Positions 19,475 through 32,730 of a stretch of 64,000 bases of DNA are shown here, in pieces (position 1 is the first letter of the stretch; each line of letters begins with the position of its first letter). The DNA lies in NCBI GenBank assembly GCA_030263455.1, contig SZOZ01000007.1:124001-188000 (forward strand), read 5' to 3'. Both the position numbers and the translations under genes were made by a program. The notes under the pieces were generated by a model that did no database searches, was not told the DNA's origin, and saw nothing but the letters and a program-made list of their open reading frames with translations. The stretch comes from Synechococcales cyanobacterium CNB (GTDB lineage: Bacteria > Planctomycetota > Phycisphaerae > Phycisphaerales > UBA1924).

Positions 19475-22387
19475 TCACCCCACGACCACGTTCACGAGTC
19501 GGCCCGGAACGACGATCACCTTGCGCACGGCGCGGCCGGCGATCGCCTCACGCACCTTCGCGTCCGCGAGCGCGATCGACTCGATGCGCGCCGCGTCCGC
19601 GTCGGCGGGAACGATCACCTTCGCCCGCACCTTGCCCGCGATCTGCACCGCGATCTCCACCTCGTCGTCGCGCAGCATCGACTCGTCGTACTCGGGCCAC
19701 GACGCGTGCGAGACGAACCCCCGTCCCCCAAGGCGGCTCCACAACTCCTCCGCCAGGTGCGGCGCGAACGGCGCAAGCACACGCGCGAAACGGTCGGCCT
19801 GGCTCCGCGTCAGCCCGCACGCGGTCGTCGCCGAGTTCACGAACTCGATCATCGCAGCGATGGCGGTGTTGAACGCCAGACGCTCGACGTCCGCCCCGAC
19901 CTTCGCGACCGTGCGGTGCAGGAGTTTCTCGACCGCCGGGTCTTGCGTCCCGCCCGCATCGGCGTCGCCGACCAGCCGCGGCTCACCGGTCTCCTCGTCG
20001 ATGATGAGCCGCCACGCGCGCTGCAGAAAGCGGAACAGGCCCGTGATGTCGCGAGGGTTCCATGGCTTGGCGGCCTCCAGCGGTCCCATGTACATCTCGT
20101 ACAGCCGGAACGTATCCGCCCCGTACTCCGCAATCACGTCGTCCGGGTTGATCACGTTGCGCAGGCTCTTGGACATCTTCGCGACAATCTGCGCCACCGG
20201 CCTGCCCGACGCCCGCTCAACGAACACCCCCTCGCCCCGCTCCTCGACCTCGTCCACGGGAACGAGCGTCTTGTCCTCACGCTGGTAGGCGTGGCTCAGG
20301 ATCAGCCCCTGGTGGAAGAGCCTGGCAAAAGGCTCATCGGTCGATACCAGGCCGAGGTCGAACAGCACCTTATGCCAGAAGCGCGCGTAGAGCAGGTGCA
20401 GCACCGCGTGCTCCGCGCCGCCGATGTAGAGATCGACGCCGCCGGCTCCATCCTCTCCGCCGCGGTACCGCCCCTCCGCTGTTCTCCCTTTCATCCAGTA
20501 CCGCTCCGCCGCCTCGCCCACGAAGCGATCCGCGTTGTGCGGGTCGCAGTAACGCAGGTAGTACCAGCACGAGCCGGCCCAGCCCGGCATCGTGTTCGTC
20601 TCACGCGTCACCGGCGCATCCGGCGGAAGCCCACGCACGCCCGCCTCGCCAGCCGTCGTGCGAAGCCAGGCGGTCGCCTTGGCGAGCAGCGGCACCGGCT
20701 CGTCGCTCTCGATCGGCTGGTAGTCCGCAAGCTCCGGCAGACGAACGGGCAGCGCATCGTCCGCCACCGCGTGGTGCCGGCCCCGCTCGTCCCACACGAT
20801 CGGGAACGGCTCGCCCCAGTAACGCTGCCGGCTGAACAGCCAGTCGCGCAGACGGTAGTTCACTCGCCTTCGCCCGACGCCCCTCTCCTCCAGCCACGCG
20901 ATGATGCGCTGCTTCGCCTCCGCGATGCACAGGCCGTCCAGGAAGCCCGAGTTGATCGCCGGCCCGTCCCCGAGGTACGGCCCGTCGCCGAAACCGGGGG
21001 GGGGCTGCACGGTCCGCACGATCGGCAGCCCGAATGCCCGTGCAAAGTCCCAGTCGCGCTGGTCCTGGCCGGGCACCGCCATGATCGCGCCCGTGCCGTA
21101 CCCCATCAGCACGTAGTCCGCCGTCCAGACCGGGATGCGCCCGCCTGTCGCAGGGTTGATCGCGTAAACCCCCGTGAAGACGCCCGTCTTCTCCCTGCTC
21201 TCCTGGCGCTCGACGTCCGAGCGATTGCGCGCCGCCAGCACGTAGCCGCGCAGAGCGTCGACGTCCGTCTCCGCGCCTGGGTAGTCGAGTGCAGCGTCCA
21301 CCAGCGGGTGCTCGGGCGCGACCACCATGTACGTCGCCCCGAAGATCGTGTCCGGGCGGGTCGTGAAGACACGCAGGGACTCGCCCGTCCGATCCCCCTC
21401 CCTGCCCAGGATCGGGAACTCGACCTCCGCCCCTTCCGATCGACCGATCCACTCGGCCTGCTGCGTGCGCGTGCTCTCGGGCCAGTCCACGCTCTCCAGC
21501 CCGCGCAACAGACGCTCGGCGTAGGCCGTGATGCGGAACATCCACTGCCGAAGCGGCTTGCGGAAGACGGGGAATCCCCCCCGCTCGCTGCGCCCGTCGA
21601 TCACCTCCTCGTTGGCCAGCGCGGTGCCGAGCCTCGGGCACCAGTTCACCGTCTGCACGCCCACGTACGCGAGGCGGTAGGAATCGACGATCATGCGCCG
21701 CGTGTCGTCGTGCATCTCCGCCCACGACATCACCGGCTTGTCAGAGCCGATGTCGCCCGCGCCGGCGTACTCCGCAGCGTTCGGATTCAGCCGCGGCGCA
21801 CGCTCGCCCGACTCGAACTCACGCACGAGTTCGTCGATCGGCCTGGCGCGCCCCCGCTCCGTGTCGTACCAGGACTCGTAGATGCGAAGGAAGACCCACT
21901 GCGTCCAGCGGTAGTAGTCCTCGTCGATCGTACCGAACTCTCGAGACCAGTCGTAGCAGAACCCGAACCGCTTCAACTGCCGACGGAAGTTGTCGATCGC
22001 ACGGCGCGTCGTGACGGCGGGGTGAACCCCCGTCTGGATCGCGTACTGCTCCGCCGGCAGTCCGAACGCATCCCATCCCATCGGGTGCAGCACGTTGTAG
22101 CCGCGCATCCGCCGGTAACGACACACTATGTCCGTCGCCGTGTACCCCTCCGGGTGACCGACGTGCAGCCCCGCGCCGGAAGGATACGGAAACATGTCGA
22201 GGCAGTAGAACTTGCGACGCGAGGCGTCGAACCCCGCCTCGCCGGGGTTCGGCTGGCGGAACGCCCCTTCCCCCTCCCAGCGCCGCTGCCACCGAGTCTC
22301 GATCGCATCCGCGAGCGCGGCCGTATAGCGGTGCGGCGGGACGGATGGGTCGGCATTCCGGCTCGGTTGATCGGCGCTCATCGGCAT
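19475..22387 (-). CDS. leuS: Leucyl-tRNA synthetase
   Basis: 970 residues. Class I synthetase charging tRNA-Leu. HIGH-type motif in MFPYPSGAGLHVGHPEGY, the KMSKS loop in VAKMSKSLRNVINPDD, and the CP1 editing domain with TRPDTIFGATYMVVAPEHPLV. The C-terminal anticodon-binding region ends with IAVQIAGKVRAKVIVPADAD and VRKVIVVPGRLVNVVVG. ATG 22387 and ATG 22381 are both possible. A terminator for folC lies just upstream, so leuS has its own promoter; TACGCT at 22409-22404 is a weak candidate. A nine-G run (20996-21004) is in frame. Confidence 0.97.
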   Translation of the reverse strand: MPMSADQPSRNADPSVPPHRYTAALADAIETRWQRRWEGEGAFRQPNPGEAGFDASRRKFYCLDMFPYPSGAGLHVGHPEGYTATDIVCRYRRMRGYNVLHPMGWDAFGLPAEQYAIQTGVHPAVTTRRAIDNFRRQLKRFGFCYDWSREFGTIDEDYYRWTQWVFLRIYESWYDTERGRARPIDELVREFESGERAPRLNPNAAEYAGAGDIGSDKPVMSWAEMHDDTRRMIVDSYRLAYVGVQTVNWCPRLGTALANEEVIDGRSERGGFPVFRKPLRQWMFRITAYAERLLRGLESVDWPESTRTQQAEWIGRSEGAEVEFPILGREGDRTGESLRVFTTRPDTIFGATYMVVAPEHPLVDAALDYPGAETDVDALRGYVLAARNRSDVERQESREKTGVFTGVYAINPATGGRIPVWTADYVLMGYGTGAIMAVPGQDQRDWDFARAFGLPIVRTVQPPPGFGDGPYLGDGPAINSGFLDGLCIAEAKQRIIAWLEERGVGRRRVNYRLRDWLFSRQRYWGEPFPIVWDERGRHHAVADDALPVRLPELADYQPIESDEPVPLLAKATAWLRTTAGEAGVRGLPPDAPVTRETNTMPGWAGSCWYYLRYCDPHNADRFVGEAAERYWMKGRTAEGRYRGGEDGAGGVDLYIGGAEHAVLHLLYARFWHKVLFDLGLVSTDEPFARLFHQGLILSHAYQREDKTLVPVDEVEERGEGVFVERASGRPVAQIVAKMSKSLRNVINPDDVIAEYGADTFRLYEMYMGPLEAAKPWNPRDITGLFRFLQRAWRLIIDEETGEPRLVGDADAGGTQDPAVEKLLHRTVAKVGADVERLAFNTAIAAMIEFVNSATTACGLTRSQADRFARVLAPFAPHLAEELWSRLGGRGFVSHASWPEYDESMLRDDEVEIAVQIAGKVRAKVIVPADADAARIESIALADAKVREAIAGRAVRKVIVVPGRLVNVVVG

Positions 22388-24165: not shown

Positions 24166-24939
24166 TCACCCCGATCGGACCGCATGAAGCGCCATCACCG
24201 CCTTCATCTCACGCACCGCCTCCCGCAAGCCCACAAAGACCGCCCGGCTCACGATCGCGTGCCCGATGTGCAACTCCTCCACTCCCGGGAGCGCGGCGAT
24301 CGGCCCCACGTTCACGTAGTTCAACGCGTGCCCGGCGTTGAACCGCATCCCGGCGTGCCGGATGCGCGCGCCCGCGTGCGCCACACGCTCGAGCTCCGAA
24401 CGCAGCAAGCCGCGCCGAAAGTCGCCCCCGCACTCCGCGAAGGCGTGCGCATACGGCCCGGTATGCACCTCGCACACGTCGAACCCGGCCGCCGCCGCGG
24501 CGTCCACCTGCCGGTCGTCCGCGTCGATGAAGGCAGACACCAGCATCCCCGCGCCGCGCAGCCGCGCGACGACCTCCTTCATCCGGGCCGACTGCCCCGC
24601 CACGTCCAGCCCGCCCTCGGTCGTGACCTCGGTGCGCCCCTCGGGGACGAGCATGGCGGTGTCGGGGCGGATCCCCCGGGCGATCTCAACCATCTCGTCC
24701 GTGGCCGCCATCTCGAGGTTGACCTTCACCGCGACGAGGCGGCGCAGGAGTTCGACGTCGCGGTCCTGGATGTGGCGGCGGTCCTCGCGCAGGTGCATGG
24801 TGATGCCGTCGGCCCCGCCGAGTTCGGCCTCGTGGGCCGCGCGGACCGGGTCCGGCTCGCCCTGCTCGGGCGGCACGCCGCGGTAGCGTGCCTGCCGGAC
24901 GGTGGCGACGTGGTCGATGTTGACGCCGAGTTGGATCAT
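24166..24939 (-). CDS. pdxJ: Pyridoxine 5'-phosphate synthase
   Basis: 257 residues. Condenses 1-deoxyxylulose 5-phosphate with 3-amino-2-oxopropyl phosphate in vitamin B6 synthesis. Conserved segments: [93 protein letters not shown] and [23 protein letters not shown] at 24951-24946 is 6 bases before the ATG (leaderless). The MauE-like gene of module A ends 9 bases upstream of this start, so read-through from the module is possible. Confidence 0.97.
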
Positions 24940-24948
24940 GCGCGCAGT

Positions 24949-25425
24949 CTACGCCGGCGCGAGCGCGGGCCGGCCCCGGAGCGGACGCCCCAGCAACGCC
25001 GTGAACACGGCGAACGCCAGATTGCGAGCGGCGATCCCGGTCCAGTCCTCGACGTTCGAAGACGCGAGCACGCCGCATCCGCACGGCGCAGGGACGGGCG
25101 GCGGGCGGAGCGTGAGGAGGAGCGCGTAGACGCCGAAGAGGCCGAAGAGTGCGGCGAGAGCCATCGCGGCACGCGCGGGCGCTCGCCCCGCCATCAGCCA
25201 CAGGAGCGCGGCGATCGCCGCGCCGAGTTCGACACCGATCACCGCCCAGGCGGCCGGCGGCGTCAATGTGTCGGGCACAAGCCCGTGCGACGACAGGACG
25301 GAGGCGAACCCGTCCGGGTTTATGAGTTTGACGAAGCCCGTGTACAGGAAGAGGGCCGCCTCGGCGAGCAGCACGGCGACGGCGAGGCGCCGCCACGTTT
25401 CGCCCGCGAGCCGCCGCGCCGTCAT
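24949..25425 (-). CDS. MauE/DoxX-family membrane protein, module A gene 4
   Basis: 158 residues, about four membrane segments: AVAVLLAEAALFLYTGFVKLINPDGF, AWAVIGVELGAAIAALLWLM, AMALAALFGLFGVYALLL and a C-terminal helix. Between helices 3 and 4 lies APCGCGVL followed by WTGIAARN. The layout matches MauE/DoxX-type proteins, which are thought to pass electrons between thiols and the quinone pool; MauE is needed to form the disulfides of methylamine dehydrogenase. The start ATGA overlaps the stop of the preceding anchored protein, indicating translational coupling. Its paralogue is at 32253-32730. Confidence 0.75.
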   Translation of the reverse strand: MTARRLAGETWRRLAVAVLLAEAALFLYTGFVKLINPDGFASVLSSHGLVPDTLTPPAAWAVIGVELGAAIAALLWLMAGRAPARAAMALAALFGLFGVYALLLTLRPPPVPAPCGCGVLASSNVEDWTGIAARNLAFAVFTALLGRPLRGRPALAPA

Positions 25426-26422: not shown

Positions 26423-26866
26423 TCACGACTCCCCACCGCCGCTCCCGCAGGGGTTGCCGACCTCGCACCCATTGAACCCGGTTGTGTAGAACGTTGTATC
26501 CGAAGCGGAGCCATCGCGCACGATGCAGCACATGCCCCAGGGGTCTGGGCCGCACAATGTCATGCTCCATCCACTCGGCACGGGGTTGTTCGGGTCGTCA
26601 CACGGCCACGAAGCGGAGTCGCCCTCTCCGTATGTATAGCAGTAGTACGTCTTGAGACTGGCTCCAGACCCATCTTTGCCCGGGGTACCAGACTCGCATC
26701 CCCGTTCGCAGTAGATCATCTCCTCCGAACCGCAATCGTCGCACCCGAGCGGCGTCTTGGGCCTGTAGCAGGGCTGCTGCGGCTGCGAGAGCGCTGTCGC
26801 GACGATTGCAGTGAGCGCAGCGGCGAATGTGACTCGCTTCCAGATGGTTCCGATTTCGCGCTTCAT
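26423..26866 (-). CDS. 12-cysteine exported protein, module A gene 2
   Basis: 147 residues. Signal peptide (MKREIGTIWKRV, then an Ala/Val-rich core, cleavage near ALSQ). The mature part has exactly 12 cysteines (33, 42, 45, 53, 57, 76, 89, 105, 113, 114, 134, 140), enough for six disulfides, and is rich in Gly, Ser, Asp and Pro. Tail: GFNGCEVGNPCGSGGGES. No family recognised. Its counterpart at 30793 has the same length and cysteine number and shares PCDD...C...CC. AGGAG upstream of the ATG overlaps the stop codon of the prepilin-like gene, so the two are coupled. Confidence 0.72.
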   Translation of the reverse strand: MKREIGTIWKRVTFAAALTAIVATALSQPQQPCYRPKTPLGCDDCGSEEMIYCERGCESGTPGKDGSGASLKTYYCYTYGEGDSASWPCDDPNNPVPSGWSMTLCGPDPWGMCCIVRDGSASDTTFYTTGFNGCEVGNPCGSGGGES

Positions 26867-26877
26867 GGTGCTTGCTC

Positions 26878-27570
26878 CTATCGGTCGCGTCCTTCGACGC
26901 CGTACCACGTGGTCATCACGGGGAACCCGATGTTGCTGACATCGTCGTACACGAACTCGCCGCCGGGCAGAAAGTCCATCCACCGGCCGATCAGCGCGCT
27001 CCCGTCGGCCATGGCGACGGGGCCGGGCGAACTGTCCGGAAGACAGCACCAGCGCGGCGGCGAGTTGCTGCGCTTCGACCAGGTGAAGAACCAGCCGAGC
27101 ATCCCCTTGGAGGCCGGCAGGCGCGTCTGGCGGCGATACACGGGCACCGGCGACTCATCCCACACGTTCTGGTCGGGCGTATTGCCCGGCTCCATGCGGC
27201 GCGCGTCGTAGACCATGCAGAGCGAGAGTTGGAAGACGGAGGCTCGCTCCGCCGCACGGTCGTCGATCATGCCCTCCCGCTTGAGCGTCTCGTACCATTT
27301 GGCGGAGCACGCGCCGACGGTGTCGAACGCCGCGAATGGGTACAGGTCGTTGTGCTCGTTGCCGTACATCTCGACCAGGGCCGCCTGCTGCTGGATCTCG
27401 CCGAGCAGGGAGGTCAGACGCCCCTGGTGCCAGGTCTGTCGAACCGACGGCAGCAGCAGGCCGACCAGGATCGTCAGCACGCCGAGGACAACAACGAGTT
27501 CGGGGAGGGAGAAGCCGCGCCGAAAGGCAAGGCCTCGTGCACGAACCGGGCTGGTCCGGGTCGGCCGCAT
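26878..27570 (-). CDS. Prepilin-like protein, module A gene 1
   Basis: 230 residues. Basic leader then the prepilin peptidase site and methylation helix RRGFSLPELVVVLGVLTILVGLLLP (residues about 17-41, cleavage after Gly19). The C-terminal domain carries VAMADGSALIG, the DG element typical of planctomycete H-X9-DG/DUF1559-like pseudopilins, and ends GFPVMTTWYGVEGRDR. This tail aligns with GHPVVSTWLGTKGADR of the copy B protein. The ATG at 27570 lies 6 bases after a TATACT element, predicting a leaderless transcript. First gene of module A. Confidence 0.82.
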   Translation of the reverse strand: MRPTRTSPVRARGLAFRRGFSLPELVVVLGVLTILVGLLLPSVRQTWHQGRLTSLLGEIQQQAALVEMYGNEHNDLYPFAAFDTVGACSAKWYETLKREGMIDDRAAERASVFQLSLCMVYDARRMEPGNTPDQNVWDESPVPVYRRQTRLPASKGMLGWFFTWSKRSNSPPRWCCLPDSSPGPVAMADGSALIGRWMDFLPGGEFVYDDVSNIGFPVMTTWYGVEGRDR

Positions 27571-27576
27571 GGGGCC

Positions 27577-27607
27577 AGTATACCACGCGACCCCCCCCCC
27601 CCGTCAA
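27577..27607 (-). promoter_or_regulatory. Module A promoter with poly-G spacer
   Basis: Minus strand: TTGACG (27607-27602) and TATACT (27582-27577) are separated by 19 bases, most of them a homopolymer; the plus strand shows C12 at 27591-27602. A change of one or two bases in the tract would move the spacer through the 17-18 optimum. This is the arrangement of phase-variable promoters such as Neisseria porA. Transcription should begin at or beside the prepilin ATG. Confidence 0.6.
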
Positions 27608-27741: not shown

Positions 27742-28104
27742 ATGGCTGTCGAGATTGATAAATCCGTCGAGTCACACCCCCTCTGCCGGCTGCCGCGGGA
27801 GGACCTGGACCTGGTGGCGGAGTTGGTGCTGGCGTCGGGGTCGCTGAAGGCGGTTGCTGAGGCGTACGGGGTGAGTTACCCCACGATCCGGGGGCGGGTG
27901 GACCGGGTGATCGAGCGGCTGCGGATGGTGCTCGAAGACCGCAAGCCGGACCCGGTGACGGACCTGCTGGCGGACCTGGTAGCCAGGGGGGAACTGACGG
28001 GGGCGACGGCGAGGCGGATTCGAGATGCGGTGCGCGAGGCGAGGAAGACGGGGCATGAAAGGCCCCGCCCCGAGGAACTGGGTTCCGAGGGAATGAACGG
28101 ATGA
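27742..28104 (+). CDS. DUF2089-family putative regulator
   Basis: 120 residues. The segment HPLCRLPREDLDLVAELVLASGSLKAVAEAYGVSYPTIRGRVDRVIERL matches the DUF2089 family, with a helix-turn-helix-like ending (VSYPTIRGR). The usual N-terminal zinc ribbon is absent, so this is the short form. Family function is not well established; DNA binding is inferred. Leaderless by promoter position. Followed 13 bases later by a membrane protein, probably one operon; its location between two identical modules suggests, but does not prove, a control role. Confidence 0.78.
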   Translation: MAVEIDKSVESHPLCRLPREDLDLVAELVLASGSLKAVAEAYGVSYPTIRGRVDRVIERLRMVLEDRKPDPVTDLLADLVARGELTGATARRIRDAVREARKTGHERPRPEELGSEGMNG

Positions 28105-29979: not shown

Positions 29980-30009
29980 TTGACAGGGGCGGCCGGCCCT
30001 TGGTATCCT
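29980..30009 (+). promoter_or_regulatory. Module B promoter
   Basis: A consensus-like promoter: TTGACA (29980-29985), 18 bases, TATCCT (30004-30009). By the spacing rule of other genes in the window the transcript begins near 30016, where a GTG codon stands 6 bases after the -10. Confidence 0.75.
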
Positions 30010-30046
30010 GCTGTTGTGGCGGGTATCGGTTCAGTCCAACCGGTTG

Positions 30047-30056
30047 CCCCCCCCCC
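30047..30056 (+). repeat. C10 homopolymer before module B prepilin start
   Basis: Ten C residues directly abut the ATG at 30057. A frame opening at the leaderless-position GTG 30016 runs through this tract and is out of frame with the prepilin; C8 or C11 would join the two frames. Confidence 0.6.
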
Positions 30057-30758
30057 ATGGGGGAGTGGCTTGTCGCTTCTTGCCGCAGAGGGCACTGCCG
30101 CGTTGCGTTCAGCCTGATTGAGTTGATCGTTGTTCTCGGCATTGTGATGGTGCTGATCGGTCTGCTCCTGCCGTCACTCGCCGCGGCGCGTGAGCGGTCT
30201 CGAATGACGCGACTGGCGGTCACGGCGAGAAGCAATGCCCTTGCCGTGGTCGCCTACGCGGGCGACCACGACGACGTGTATCCGATCGCATCAGCCGACG
30301 TAGGAAACGCGATGCTCGACTGGGACGATCCCCTCATCGCGGAGGGCATTCTTCCGTCCAAGGCAGCGGTCGATCCGGACGGCGTTCGCGAGCATGGCGG
30401 ACCGAAGTTCGCCCTGTCGGGCGCTCTTGTGCATCCGTCACGCTTCTTGGAACCTGGCGCCACCCTGCCGATCGACCTCGCGAAGGCCTCGCCGATCCGC
30501 CAGTCCGAGGTCGCGTATCCGTCACAGAAAGGCATGATGGTCCGCTGGCTGTTCGTGCGCGACGGAGTCCACACCTTCTGGACGTGGAATCCCTACGACC
30601 GACCGATCGCGCCCGTGGCCTGGACGGATGGGCACGTGTCCGAGCATCGATGCACGGACTTTGCCCTGGCGTACCCGTACTTCGAGAACTGGGTCGGTCA
30701 TCCGGTCGTGAGCACGTGGCTCGGGACAAAGGGCGCCGACAGACTTGCGCTCGAATGA
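30057..30758 (+). CDS. Prepilin-like protein, module B gene 1
   Basis: 233 residues from ATG 30057. Basic leader SCRRGHCRVAFSLIELIVVLG, with Ala rather than Gly at the prepilin peptidase site, and a hydrophobic helix to about residue 42. The C-terminal part has VAWTDGHVSEHRCTDFA and ends VGHPVVSTWLGTKGADRLALE, homologous to the module A prepilin. No ribosome-binding site precedes the ATG; the promoter (29980-30009) would place the 5' end near a GTG at 30016 that is currently out of frame because of C10. So the true start, and whether the gene is on, are uncertain. Confidence 0.75.
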   Translation: MGEWLVASCRRGHCRVAFSLIELIVVLGIVMVLIGLLLPSLAAARERSRMTRLAVTARSNALAVVAYAGDHDDVYPIASADVGNAMLDWDDPLIAEGILPSKAAVDPDGVREHGGPKFALSGALVHPSRFLEPGATLPIDLAKASPIRQSEVAYPSQKGMMVRWLFVRDGVHTFWTWNPYDRPIAPVAWTDGHVSEHRCTDFALAYPYFENWVGHPVVSTWLGTKGADRLALE

Positions 30759-30792
30759 ACCACGATGGAGCACACGCAAAGGAGGCATCGCC

Positions 30793-31236
30793 ATGACGAA
30801 CACACTCGCCGGACGAATCGCCGGAGCGATCGGGCTGGCTGCGGCGCTCACCGTGATCGCCGCGCCCGACTACTGCTACTTCCTCGAGCGGGTGCAGGAT
30901 GGTGAGAGTTCGGGGTGCGGCTCCGGGGCGTCCTTCTGTCTGAACAACACCATCGTCTGCGATGTCGGTCTCACGACGCGGGTCGACTACGGCTGCGGCA
31001 AGAAGGGGCCGATGTCATTCCCCGGTGTCGTCCGCAAGTGCTTCAAGATCACCAATGCGATTACGCACCCCTGCGACGATGACGATGAGCCTGCGGGCGC
31101 GGATCCGGTGGGATGCCGGACGGAATCCGGCGTATGCTGCTACGGTACCCTGACCTACGACAGTAACGTGCCCGGTGATCCGTACATGAGCGTTGCTTCC
31201 GGCGCGCGCTGCTGCAATGTCGTCGTCTCCGAGTAG
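30793..31236 (+). CDS. 12-cysteine exported protein, module B gene 2
   Basis: 147 residues, same length as the module A counterpart. Signal peptide MTNTLAGRIAGAIGLAAALTV, then a mature part with 12 cysteines (28, 42, 49, 56, 68, 83, 94, 108, 115, 116, 140, 141). Shared features with copy A: PCDD, a further Cys 14-16 residues on, a CC pair 7-8 later and a late pair of Cys. There is no tryptophan, so it is not a methylamine-dehydrogenase small subunit, which also has six disulfides and needs two Trp. AAAGGAGG 7 bases upstream is a strong ribosome site. Function unknown. Confidence 0.72.
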   Translation: MTNTLAGRIAGAIGLAAALTVIAAPDYCYFLERVQDGESSGCGSGASFCLNNTIVCDVGLTTRVDYGCGKKGPMSFPGVVRKCFKITNAITHPCDDDDEPAGADPVGCRTESGVCCYGTLTYDSNVPGDPYMSVASGARCCNVVVSE

Positions 31237-31245
31237 CGCCGCCCC

Positions 31246-32256
31246 ATGCTGACCAGTCGTCTCATGCTGGCCGGCGCCGTGTCGGGCGCCGTGACGCACG
31301 CGACACCGACGGAGTCGGCGCCGCTCGTTCAATGGCTGGAGACGCGTCCCCAGACGGTTCAACCGGCGACCGATGATCACACGCCCGAATCTCTCGCATC
31401 GGCAATCGTCAGCGGTTGGCCGGCGCAGGGTTCGATCTTCGCGCACTACACCGACGAACACGACAACGACCTTCGGGTCGCGTTCGATTTCGCATCCCGC
31501 GCTTGGAACAGCATCCGAGCCAGAGAGGTCATCGTCGCCCGGGATCCTGACGGAGTCGTCTACGCGGGCAGGATCGATGCAGGGCGCTTGCGGGAAACGT
31601 CGCCCGGCGGGGCAGACTGGGTTCTCGACCATGTCTTTCCCCAAGTGGGTGTTGTGAATGTGCTTCGAGCGCCGAACGCGAACCCTCGTGTGGAGCGCGC
31701 GAACGGTGGCGGGTGGATCGTTGTGGTGTCGCTGCCTCGCGCATCACGCTACCCGCCCGCCGAGCGACTCTCTGAGTTTGACATCCAACAGTGGGGCGGA
31801 CCCCATGGCATGTACAGGGACGTTACTTTTGTGATCCGCGATGATCTAACCGTCGCGTCAATCACTCGCCCGACGCGACCAAGTCATGCGGAACCGGGCA
31901 TGGAGACGCTCGCGTTCGACACGGCGGAGACGGGCATCCCTGGCTTCCAGGTTGTCCGCACCCACCCACCCCCCGGTAAGCGAATCCTGACCCACTTCGA
32001 GCACGACCGAGCGGGCGCTCCCGAGCGATTCACAGCCGGCGCAGTCCTCAGAGAGGCGGAGTTGCGCCGAATCGAGCATCGCCCGCGGGTGCAGGTCATG
32101 AGCGCGGACGAGGCGGACGCCAGCCCCCGATTGCGCCCTGCTCCCATACGCGACGCGAAGTCCTCGATCGAGTCACTGCGGATTGGGTTGCTCGGCGGCG
32201 GAGTACTCTTCCTCGTAGTCGGAGCCCTCGCGTGGTTCAGATTGCGACGAGCATGA
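31246..32256 (+). CDS. Exported C-terminally anchored protein, module B gene 3
   Basis: 336 residues. Signal-like N-terminus (MLTSRLMLAGAVSGAVTHA), a globular region with GSIFAHYTDEHDNDLRVAFDFASRAW, DPDGVVYAGRIDAGRL and VERANGGGWIVVVSLPRASR, which aligns with the module A protein, then RIGLLGGGVLFLVVGALAWF and the tail RLRRA. This is a membrane anchor with a short basic cytoplasmic end. It starts 9 bases after the 12-Cys gene and its TGA stop overlaps an ATG (32253) as in module A. No known family. The N-terminal start could also be the ATG at 31264. Confidence 0.7.
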   Translation: MLTSRLMLAGAVSGAVTHATPTESAPLVQWLETRPQTVQPATDDHTPESLASAIVSGWPAQGSIFAHYTDEHDNDLRVAFDFASRAWNSIRAREVIVARDPDGVVYAGRIDAGRLRETSPGGADWVLDHVFPQVGVVNVLRAPNANPRVERANGGGWIVVVSLPRASRYPPAERLSEFDIQQWGGPHGMYRDVTFVIRDDLTVASITRPTRPSHAEPGMETLAFDTAETGIPGFQVVRTHPPPGKRILTHFEHDRAGAPERFTAGAVLREAELRRIEHRPRVQVMSADEADASPRLRPAPIRDAKSSIESLRIGLLGGGVLFLVVGALAWFRLRRA

Positions 32257-32730
32257 CGCGGAGCGCCCCCCCGGCGGGAGGTCAGCGTCCGGGCAGTCGT
32301 CGTACTCCTCGGAGCCGCGTGGCTGCTCGTTGCGGGCATAAGCAAACTCTTCGGACCCGAGATCTTTGCCGATGCGCTGCACGCGCACGAAGTCGTGCCG
32401 GCGGAGTACGTTTCGTTCGTTGCGTTTGCCTTCCCGATCGCCGAGGTCGCCATCGGTCTTGGGGTGACGGGTGCCCTCGTCCTGGGAAAGTCCGTGAGGG
32501 CAAGCGCAACCACCCCGCTCGCCGTGTACAGCGTGTTCTTTGCGTATGCGCTCTGGCTTACGCAATACCCGCCGGATCAACCGGCCGCATGCGGCTGCGG
32601 ATTCTCGTCCGCGCCGGTCGATCGTTGGGGTCCGATCGCACTGCGGAATGGGGCGGCAACGGCGGTCTTGGTCGCCTGCGCGCTCCTTCCATGGAAGCAG
32701 GATCAAGTCCTTTCACGGCCGAACGCGTGA
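32253..32730 (+). CDS. MauE/DoxX-family membrane protein with out-of-frame start, module B gene 4
   Basis: The protein frame from 32257 to 32730 reads VRAVVVLLGAAWLLVAGISKLFGPEIF, later helices, QPAACGCGFSSAPVDRWGPIALRN and a last helix, clearly the paralogue of the module A MauE-like protein. But no ATG, GTG or TTG precedes the first helix in this frame. The expected start, ATGA at 32253 overlapping the stop of gene 3 exactly as in module A, is one base out of frame because of a seven-C run (32266-32272). With six Cs it would read MTRSAPRREVSVRAVVV. The alternatives are a slipped or phase-off gene, a programmed frameshift, a sequencing error, or restart at GTG 32395 giving a 111-residue form without helix 1. 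Confidence 0.65.

Follow-up and report, generated by a model that had tools for sequence, protein, structure and literature searches.

Structure of the module A promoter

The stretch of DNA analysed here (the window) comprises 64,000 nucleotides, positions 124,001 to 188,000 of contig SZOZ01000007.1 (assembly GCA_030263455.1). It contains a four-gene operon, module A, whose genes F1 to F4 lie on the minus strand, and a set of their paralogues on the plus strand, module B (Table 1). The element in question is the promoter of module A, in which a run of G residues separates the −35 box from the −10 box.

Table 1. Positions in the window of the module A and module B features
Feature	Position	Strand	Basis or remark
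−35 box TTGACG	27602..27607	−	Final G shared with the tract as its first base; retained in two congeners as TTGACG and TTGACC
G12 tract (C12 on the plus strand)	27591..27602	−	Makes up most of the −35/−10 spacer
−10 box TATACT	27577..27582	−	TGG in front (extended −10)
F1, prepilin-like protein, 230 amino acids (aa)	26878..27570	−	Open reading frame (ORF); TIGR02532 above cut-off; heads tight operon
F2, small Cys-rich secreted protein	26423..26866	−	ORF and composition
F3, 323 aa, N-terminal hydrophobic stretch and C-terminal transmembrane segment	25422..26393	−	ORF, sequence
F4, MauE-family membrane protein	24949..25425	−	PF07291, 67.5 bits; start overlaps F3 stop
Module B promoter TTGACA-18-TATCCT, tractless	29980..30009	+	Pattern search
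C10 run abutting module B ATG (30057)	30047..30056	+	Run listing
Module B, paralogues of F1, F2, F3 and F4	30057..32730	+	ORFs, Pfam, hidden Markov models (HMMs)

On the plus strand the site reads agtataccacgcga-C12-gtcaa, and its C12 is the longest homopolymer of the window; the first-order transition rates predict 0.03 C runs and 0.003 G runs of at least 12 bases per 64 kb. Read on the minus strand, the spacer (27601–27583) is composed of G11 followed by TCGCGTGG. The coordinates confirm the preliminary description of this promoter, in which TTGACG and TATACT are 19 bases apart and the spacer is mostly G on the coding strand. The combination TTGACG-N19-TATACT has a single exact match in the window and ten matches with up to three mismatches (the other nine use all three), compared with a mean of 7.6 such matches in the shuffled window. 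The layout, with a repeat tract inside the −35/−10 spacer, is of the type known from porA. The ATG of F1 (27570–27568) lies 6 bases beyond TATACT, so that transcription starting at the usual distance would begin at or beside the ATG and the message would be leaderless.

Spacer lengths were compared among leaderless promoters in seven genomes using the pattern TTGAC-N14..22-TANNNT-N6-ATG. Tractless promoters have spacers of 16 (seven cases), 17 (13) or 18 bases (two), with other values in seven, whereas those with a tract have spacers of 19 (three), 20 (one) or 21 bases (one). In the genome of the window (G000) and its two congeners (G001 and G002; one genome per species), all ten tractless leaderless promoters have 16 or 17 bases. 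The preliminary description was right about the distance of 19, but its estimate that the loss of one or two bases would give the optimum of 18 or 17 needs revision: because the norm in the genus is 16–17, two or three bases would have to be lost to reach the usual spacing.

Conservation and recurrence of tract promoters

The orthologous region in the two congeners is 86–88% identical at the DNA level. The intergenic DNA in the alignment has diverged, yet GGGTTGAC, a G-rich tract and GGTAKACT are retained. The module A tract is G12 in the window, C followed by G12 in G002 and GGGGAG10 in G001, giving spacers of 19, 20 and 21 bases, respectively. A second orthologous pair, the promoters of a Cys-rich gene (G000:C9:69300 and G002:C218), has G11 in one species and G9 in the other; their flanks closely resemble each other, and a single substitution lies between the boxes. 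The tracts of paralogue pairs also differ in length (G11/G12 in G018 and G12/G15 in G437). The G002 orthologue of the C9:69300 gene (L252) is also one base shorter than the G000 copy soon after the ATG.

Of 25 prepilin-like family members from 13 genomes whose upstream DNA was inspected, 13 carry at least eight consecutive Gs or Cs in the −35/−10 spacer; one further member (G034_a) sits so close to a contig end that little DNA precedes it. In G015 a TG repeat fills the 19-base spacer of the prepilin-like gene. The repeat at homologous genes can be G, C or TG, so that what recurs is repetitiveness and not one particular sequence. Another prepilin-like gene, G034_c (L093), opens with repeated ATGGGC units, so that several in-frame starts are possible.

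To survey the order, 151 genomes were searched with the pattern TTGAC-N(0-12)-G9-N(0-12)-TANNNT and its C9 version, with the reversed patterns as controls. The G9 pattern gave 65 rows (61 unique sites in 29 genomes; reversed pattern, 2) and the C9 pattern 25 rows (24 unique sites in 17 genomes; reversed pattern, 1). The promoter of the preliminary description is one member of a large set. Excluding spacers outside 14–24 bases and merging double readings left 84 unique sites, and removing five that were known only via the prepilin search (two in L086, two in L087 and one in L098) left an unbiased set of 79. The spacers of the tract promoters span 14 to 22 bases with histogram maxima at 16 and 19, and lie within 16–18 in 34 of 79 cases, as against 22 of 29 for the tractless leaderless promoters (p = 0.004). 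The offset of the ATG from the −10 box peaks at 6–7 bases (21 of 84 sites). Across the phylum, 18 of 294 genomes had matches to a G10 pattern (28 rows, compared with four for the reversed pattern); many first genes at these loci have signal-like N-termini by eye and two loci passed the Cys-rich rule described below, while none of the first genes matched any of our four HMMs.

The first gene downstream of each site was scored for four module kinds: prepilin-like, Cys-rich secreted, secreted with 330–390 aa, and MauE. The window supplied the seeds of the HMMs for F1, F3 and F4, and a tract site in the same genome supplied that of F5 (a first gene resembling F3); F2 was assigned by a rule that combines protein length, cysteines and a hydrophobic N-terminus. 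A module gene was recognized at 49 of the 79 unbiased sites (F1 11, F5 15, F2 18 and F4 5; none at 30). The same procedure recognized one at nine of 93 flanks of runs in the window's own genome and at 35 of 600 random places (Fisher 2e-13 and 3e-31, respectively). Counting F1 and F4 alone, the figures are 16 of 79 sites and two of 93 controls, and of the 60 sites in the taxonomic family to which the window belongs, 43 have a recognized first gene. Other module genes follow in many of the tract-promoter operons. A hydrophobic N-terminus is present in 66 of 79 first genes (84 sites examined, five without an ORF) but in 12 of 45 window genes.

The genome of the window has 56 distinct G/C runs of at least ten bases, of which just four reach 12 or more. 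Strict promoter spacers hold five runs, of 15, 13, 12, 11 and 10 bases. By inspection, runs of 14 and 11 bases also lie upstream of Cys-rich secreted genes between TTG and TATCAT; their apparent spacings, 14 and 12, fall outside the strict rule. Runs stand at module-type genes in four of four cases at lengths of at least 12, two of seven at length 11 and two of 45 at length 10 (Fisher 7e-5 for at least 12 versus 10), three of these eight runs (the 14, the 11 and the module B C10) having been placed by inspection. The caveat in the preliminary description that other G/C runs lie in coding sequence is upheld, as most sit in long open frames with a coding-like GC content at third codon positions. 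The G runs of the window are bimodal in length (G5 21, G6 2, G7 0, G8 1, G9 5 and G10 1), with runs of 9–10 commoner than those of 6–8. One 9-base run (window 20996) lies within leuS (19475–22387), and a 10-base run (G000:C5:37672-37681, L030) lies within mutS (C5:36300-38966), where slippage would inactivate mismatch repair.

Probable phase variation and the alternatives

Taken together, these comparisons make it probable that the tract promoters form a family-wide set of slippage-driven phase-variation switches of the promoter-spacer (porA/hifA) type, acting mainly on one uncharacterised secreted/pseudopilin system. The preliminary description had likened the tract to that of porA, and this appears to be the best reading in view of the conservation in congeners, the G11/G9 orthologues, the roughly 85 sites across the order against three for the reversed patterns, and the association with particular gene families. 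The tract would be a contingency element in the spacer of a σ70-type leaderless promoter that drives the four-gene operon for a prepilin-like protein, a Cys-rich secreted protein, a secreted protein with a C-terminal transmembrane segment and a MauE-family redox membrane protein. Slipped-strand mispairing within a clone would add or remove single Gs and so shift the −35/−10 distance, now 19 bases and otherwise 16–17 in the genus. The changed distance would alter the transcription rate, giving mixed populations of strong and weak expressers. With the same device at several unlinked copies of the system, in this genome and across the family, cells may vary independently in the copies that they express.

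Several observations weigh against such switching. The tract-length differences are known between species or paralogues and not between isolates, and exact homopolymer lengths are uncertain in draft assemblies. Ten of the 25 prepilin-like family members have no spacer tract of at least eight bases, among them a paralogue labelled C12 and its two orthologues, and 30 of the 79 tract promoters precede no recognized module gene. The association with module genes is partly circular, since the F5 seed came from a tract site and proteins from the sites were later used to train every HMM, and the Cys-rich rule fires at 22 of 600 random places. Runs of 9–10 bases also occur in housekeeping genes (leuS and mutS), and long runs are therefore tolerated in themselves. 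The genome encodes mutS and mutL, whose products usually damp single-base slippage, and the extended −10 could lessen the dependence of the promoter on spacing. The presence of both genes also rules out lost mismatch repair as the cause of the long runs. A sequencing artefact was likewise rejected as the source of the tracts: although draft assemblies do not fix the exact length of each tract, the same layout is present in many separate genomes.

The tract could instead be a structural or regulator-binding element of fixed length, acting through DNA stiffness or a G-run-binding protein without any switching. The retention of tract and boxes in three species, the small length differences among the module A tracts and the presence of MutS and MutL are all consistent with such an element. 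It is nevertheless unlikely, as the spacers of tract promoters vary from 14 to 22 bases, the repeat unit (G, C or TG) and its position in the spacer can both vary, and one orthologous pair differs by exactly two Gs. A promoter that acts through its extended −10 (TGGTATACT), with TTGAC and the tract of little effect, seems very unlikely; TGG precedes the −10 box in two of the three congeners, but GGGTTGAC is retained amid diverging intergenic DNA and TG is absent before the −10 box in many other tract promoters. That the tracts are neutral, GC-rich genomes growing G/C runs by slippage and some reaching promoters by chance, is barely credible: although most of the 56 runs are coding and housekeeping genes carry runs of 9–10, the 85 sites stand against three reversed-pattern matches, the sites are concentrated at one set of gene families and all four runs of at least 12 are upstream of module-type genes.

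A spacer switch of this kind is a known mechanism; the novelty lies in how large the set is, in its focus on a single uncharacterised gene system and in the lineage that carries it. Passages of PMC3639595 describe variants of Neisseria meningitidis porA with 11G, 10G and 9G under antibody selection. Like the module A promoter, porA has a homopolymeric G tract in the −35/−10 spacer; the length of the porA tract sets the expression level. Unlike porA, a single porin gene of a human-adapted bacterium, the promoters described here number in the dozens across a family, are in many cases leaderless, precede a pseudopilin/Cys-rich/MauE system and are candidate switches. For hifA/hifB of Haemophilus influenzae, TA repeats between −35 and −10 are proposed in passages of PMC2651432 to alter the spacing of the pilin-gene promoters. 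The (TG)n spacer of the prepilin-like gene in G015 resembles this arrangement, whereas hifA/hifB differs from the promoters described here in having a dinucleotide tract and a divergent promoter pair. The hifA/hifB products are chaperone-dependent fimbriae and not prepilin-type proteins.

As in the phasomes of Neisseria, Haemophilus and Campylobacter, which in excerpted accounts act mostly on surface or secreted products, many contingency loci would be present in each genome. Those phasomes operate mostly at translation and affect a wide range of functions, whereas the promoter tracts described here are concentrated on a single uncharacterised gene system. Most known cases of phase variation driven by repeats come from host-adapted bacteria. 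According to excerpts of PMC4060949, the presence of long simple repeats is correlated with dependence on a eukaryotic host, and mononucleotide and short-unit repeats are avoided over all phyla. PMC2831843 concerns tracts within coding genes, and the words planctomycetes, rhodopirellula and intergenic are absent from it. Among titles and abstract openings, a coverage that leaves out most subscription papers and preprints, we found no description of phase variation in Planctomycetes or Planctomycetota.

A more specific proposal, for and against which we see about equal chances, is that of a dedicated promoter phasome in a probable planctomycete family. The longest homopolymers would independently switch copies of the pseudopilin/Cys-rich/MauE system, some of them, such as module B, perhaps at translation, and a clonal population would be a mosaic of cells that differ in the set of Cys-rich secreted and pilin-like proteins on display. 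If true, dozens of switch promoters in one family would mark this gene system as what the cells diversify, with contact with phage, predators or partners as guesses at the driver, and the lineage would offer a natural experiment on the causes of phase variation. The tract could also serve as a function-blind marker for locating further members of the system.

Module B and the gene products

In module B (window 30016–30120), the GTG located 6 bases beyond the −10 box starts a reading frame that crosses the C10 tract. This frame is not in register with the prepilin-like gene and, at the present C10 length, reaches a stop after 33 codons. The C10, inside a leaderless frame, may act as a translational switch; alternatively, translation may just begin at the ATG at 30057. 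Immediately beyond the MauE gene of module A, TAGACT stands 6 bases before a pdxJ-like ATG (window 24939–24951), a leaderless-looking −10 box without a clear TTGAC. The divergent DUF2089-like gene (27742–28104) was dropped as a module member because the matching stretch occurs in genera where the module A part has no DNA-level match.

F1 carries the N-terminal cleavage/methylation motif as judged by TIGR02532 (22.7 bits; cut-off 16.3), and its PF07963 score of 20.5 is slightly below the cut-off of 21.2. It stays below the curated cut-offs of the full-length models for named pseudopilins, such as GspG (19.5 of 88.85) and ComGE (20 of 49). F2 and F3 have no Pfam or NCBIfam family matches, and an AlphaFold2 model of F3 based on an alignment of the two window copies only has a mean predicted local distance difference test score of 39. 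The module B MauE protein scores 33.1 bits against PF07291 (gathering score 27). PF07596 has 12 matches in the genome of the window and none in 14 control genomes, which together with hallmark families makes the Planctomycetota a probable assignment. A profile search of genome contigs with the prepilin alignment returned 21 loci with weak N-terminal prepilin matches, in many phyla.
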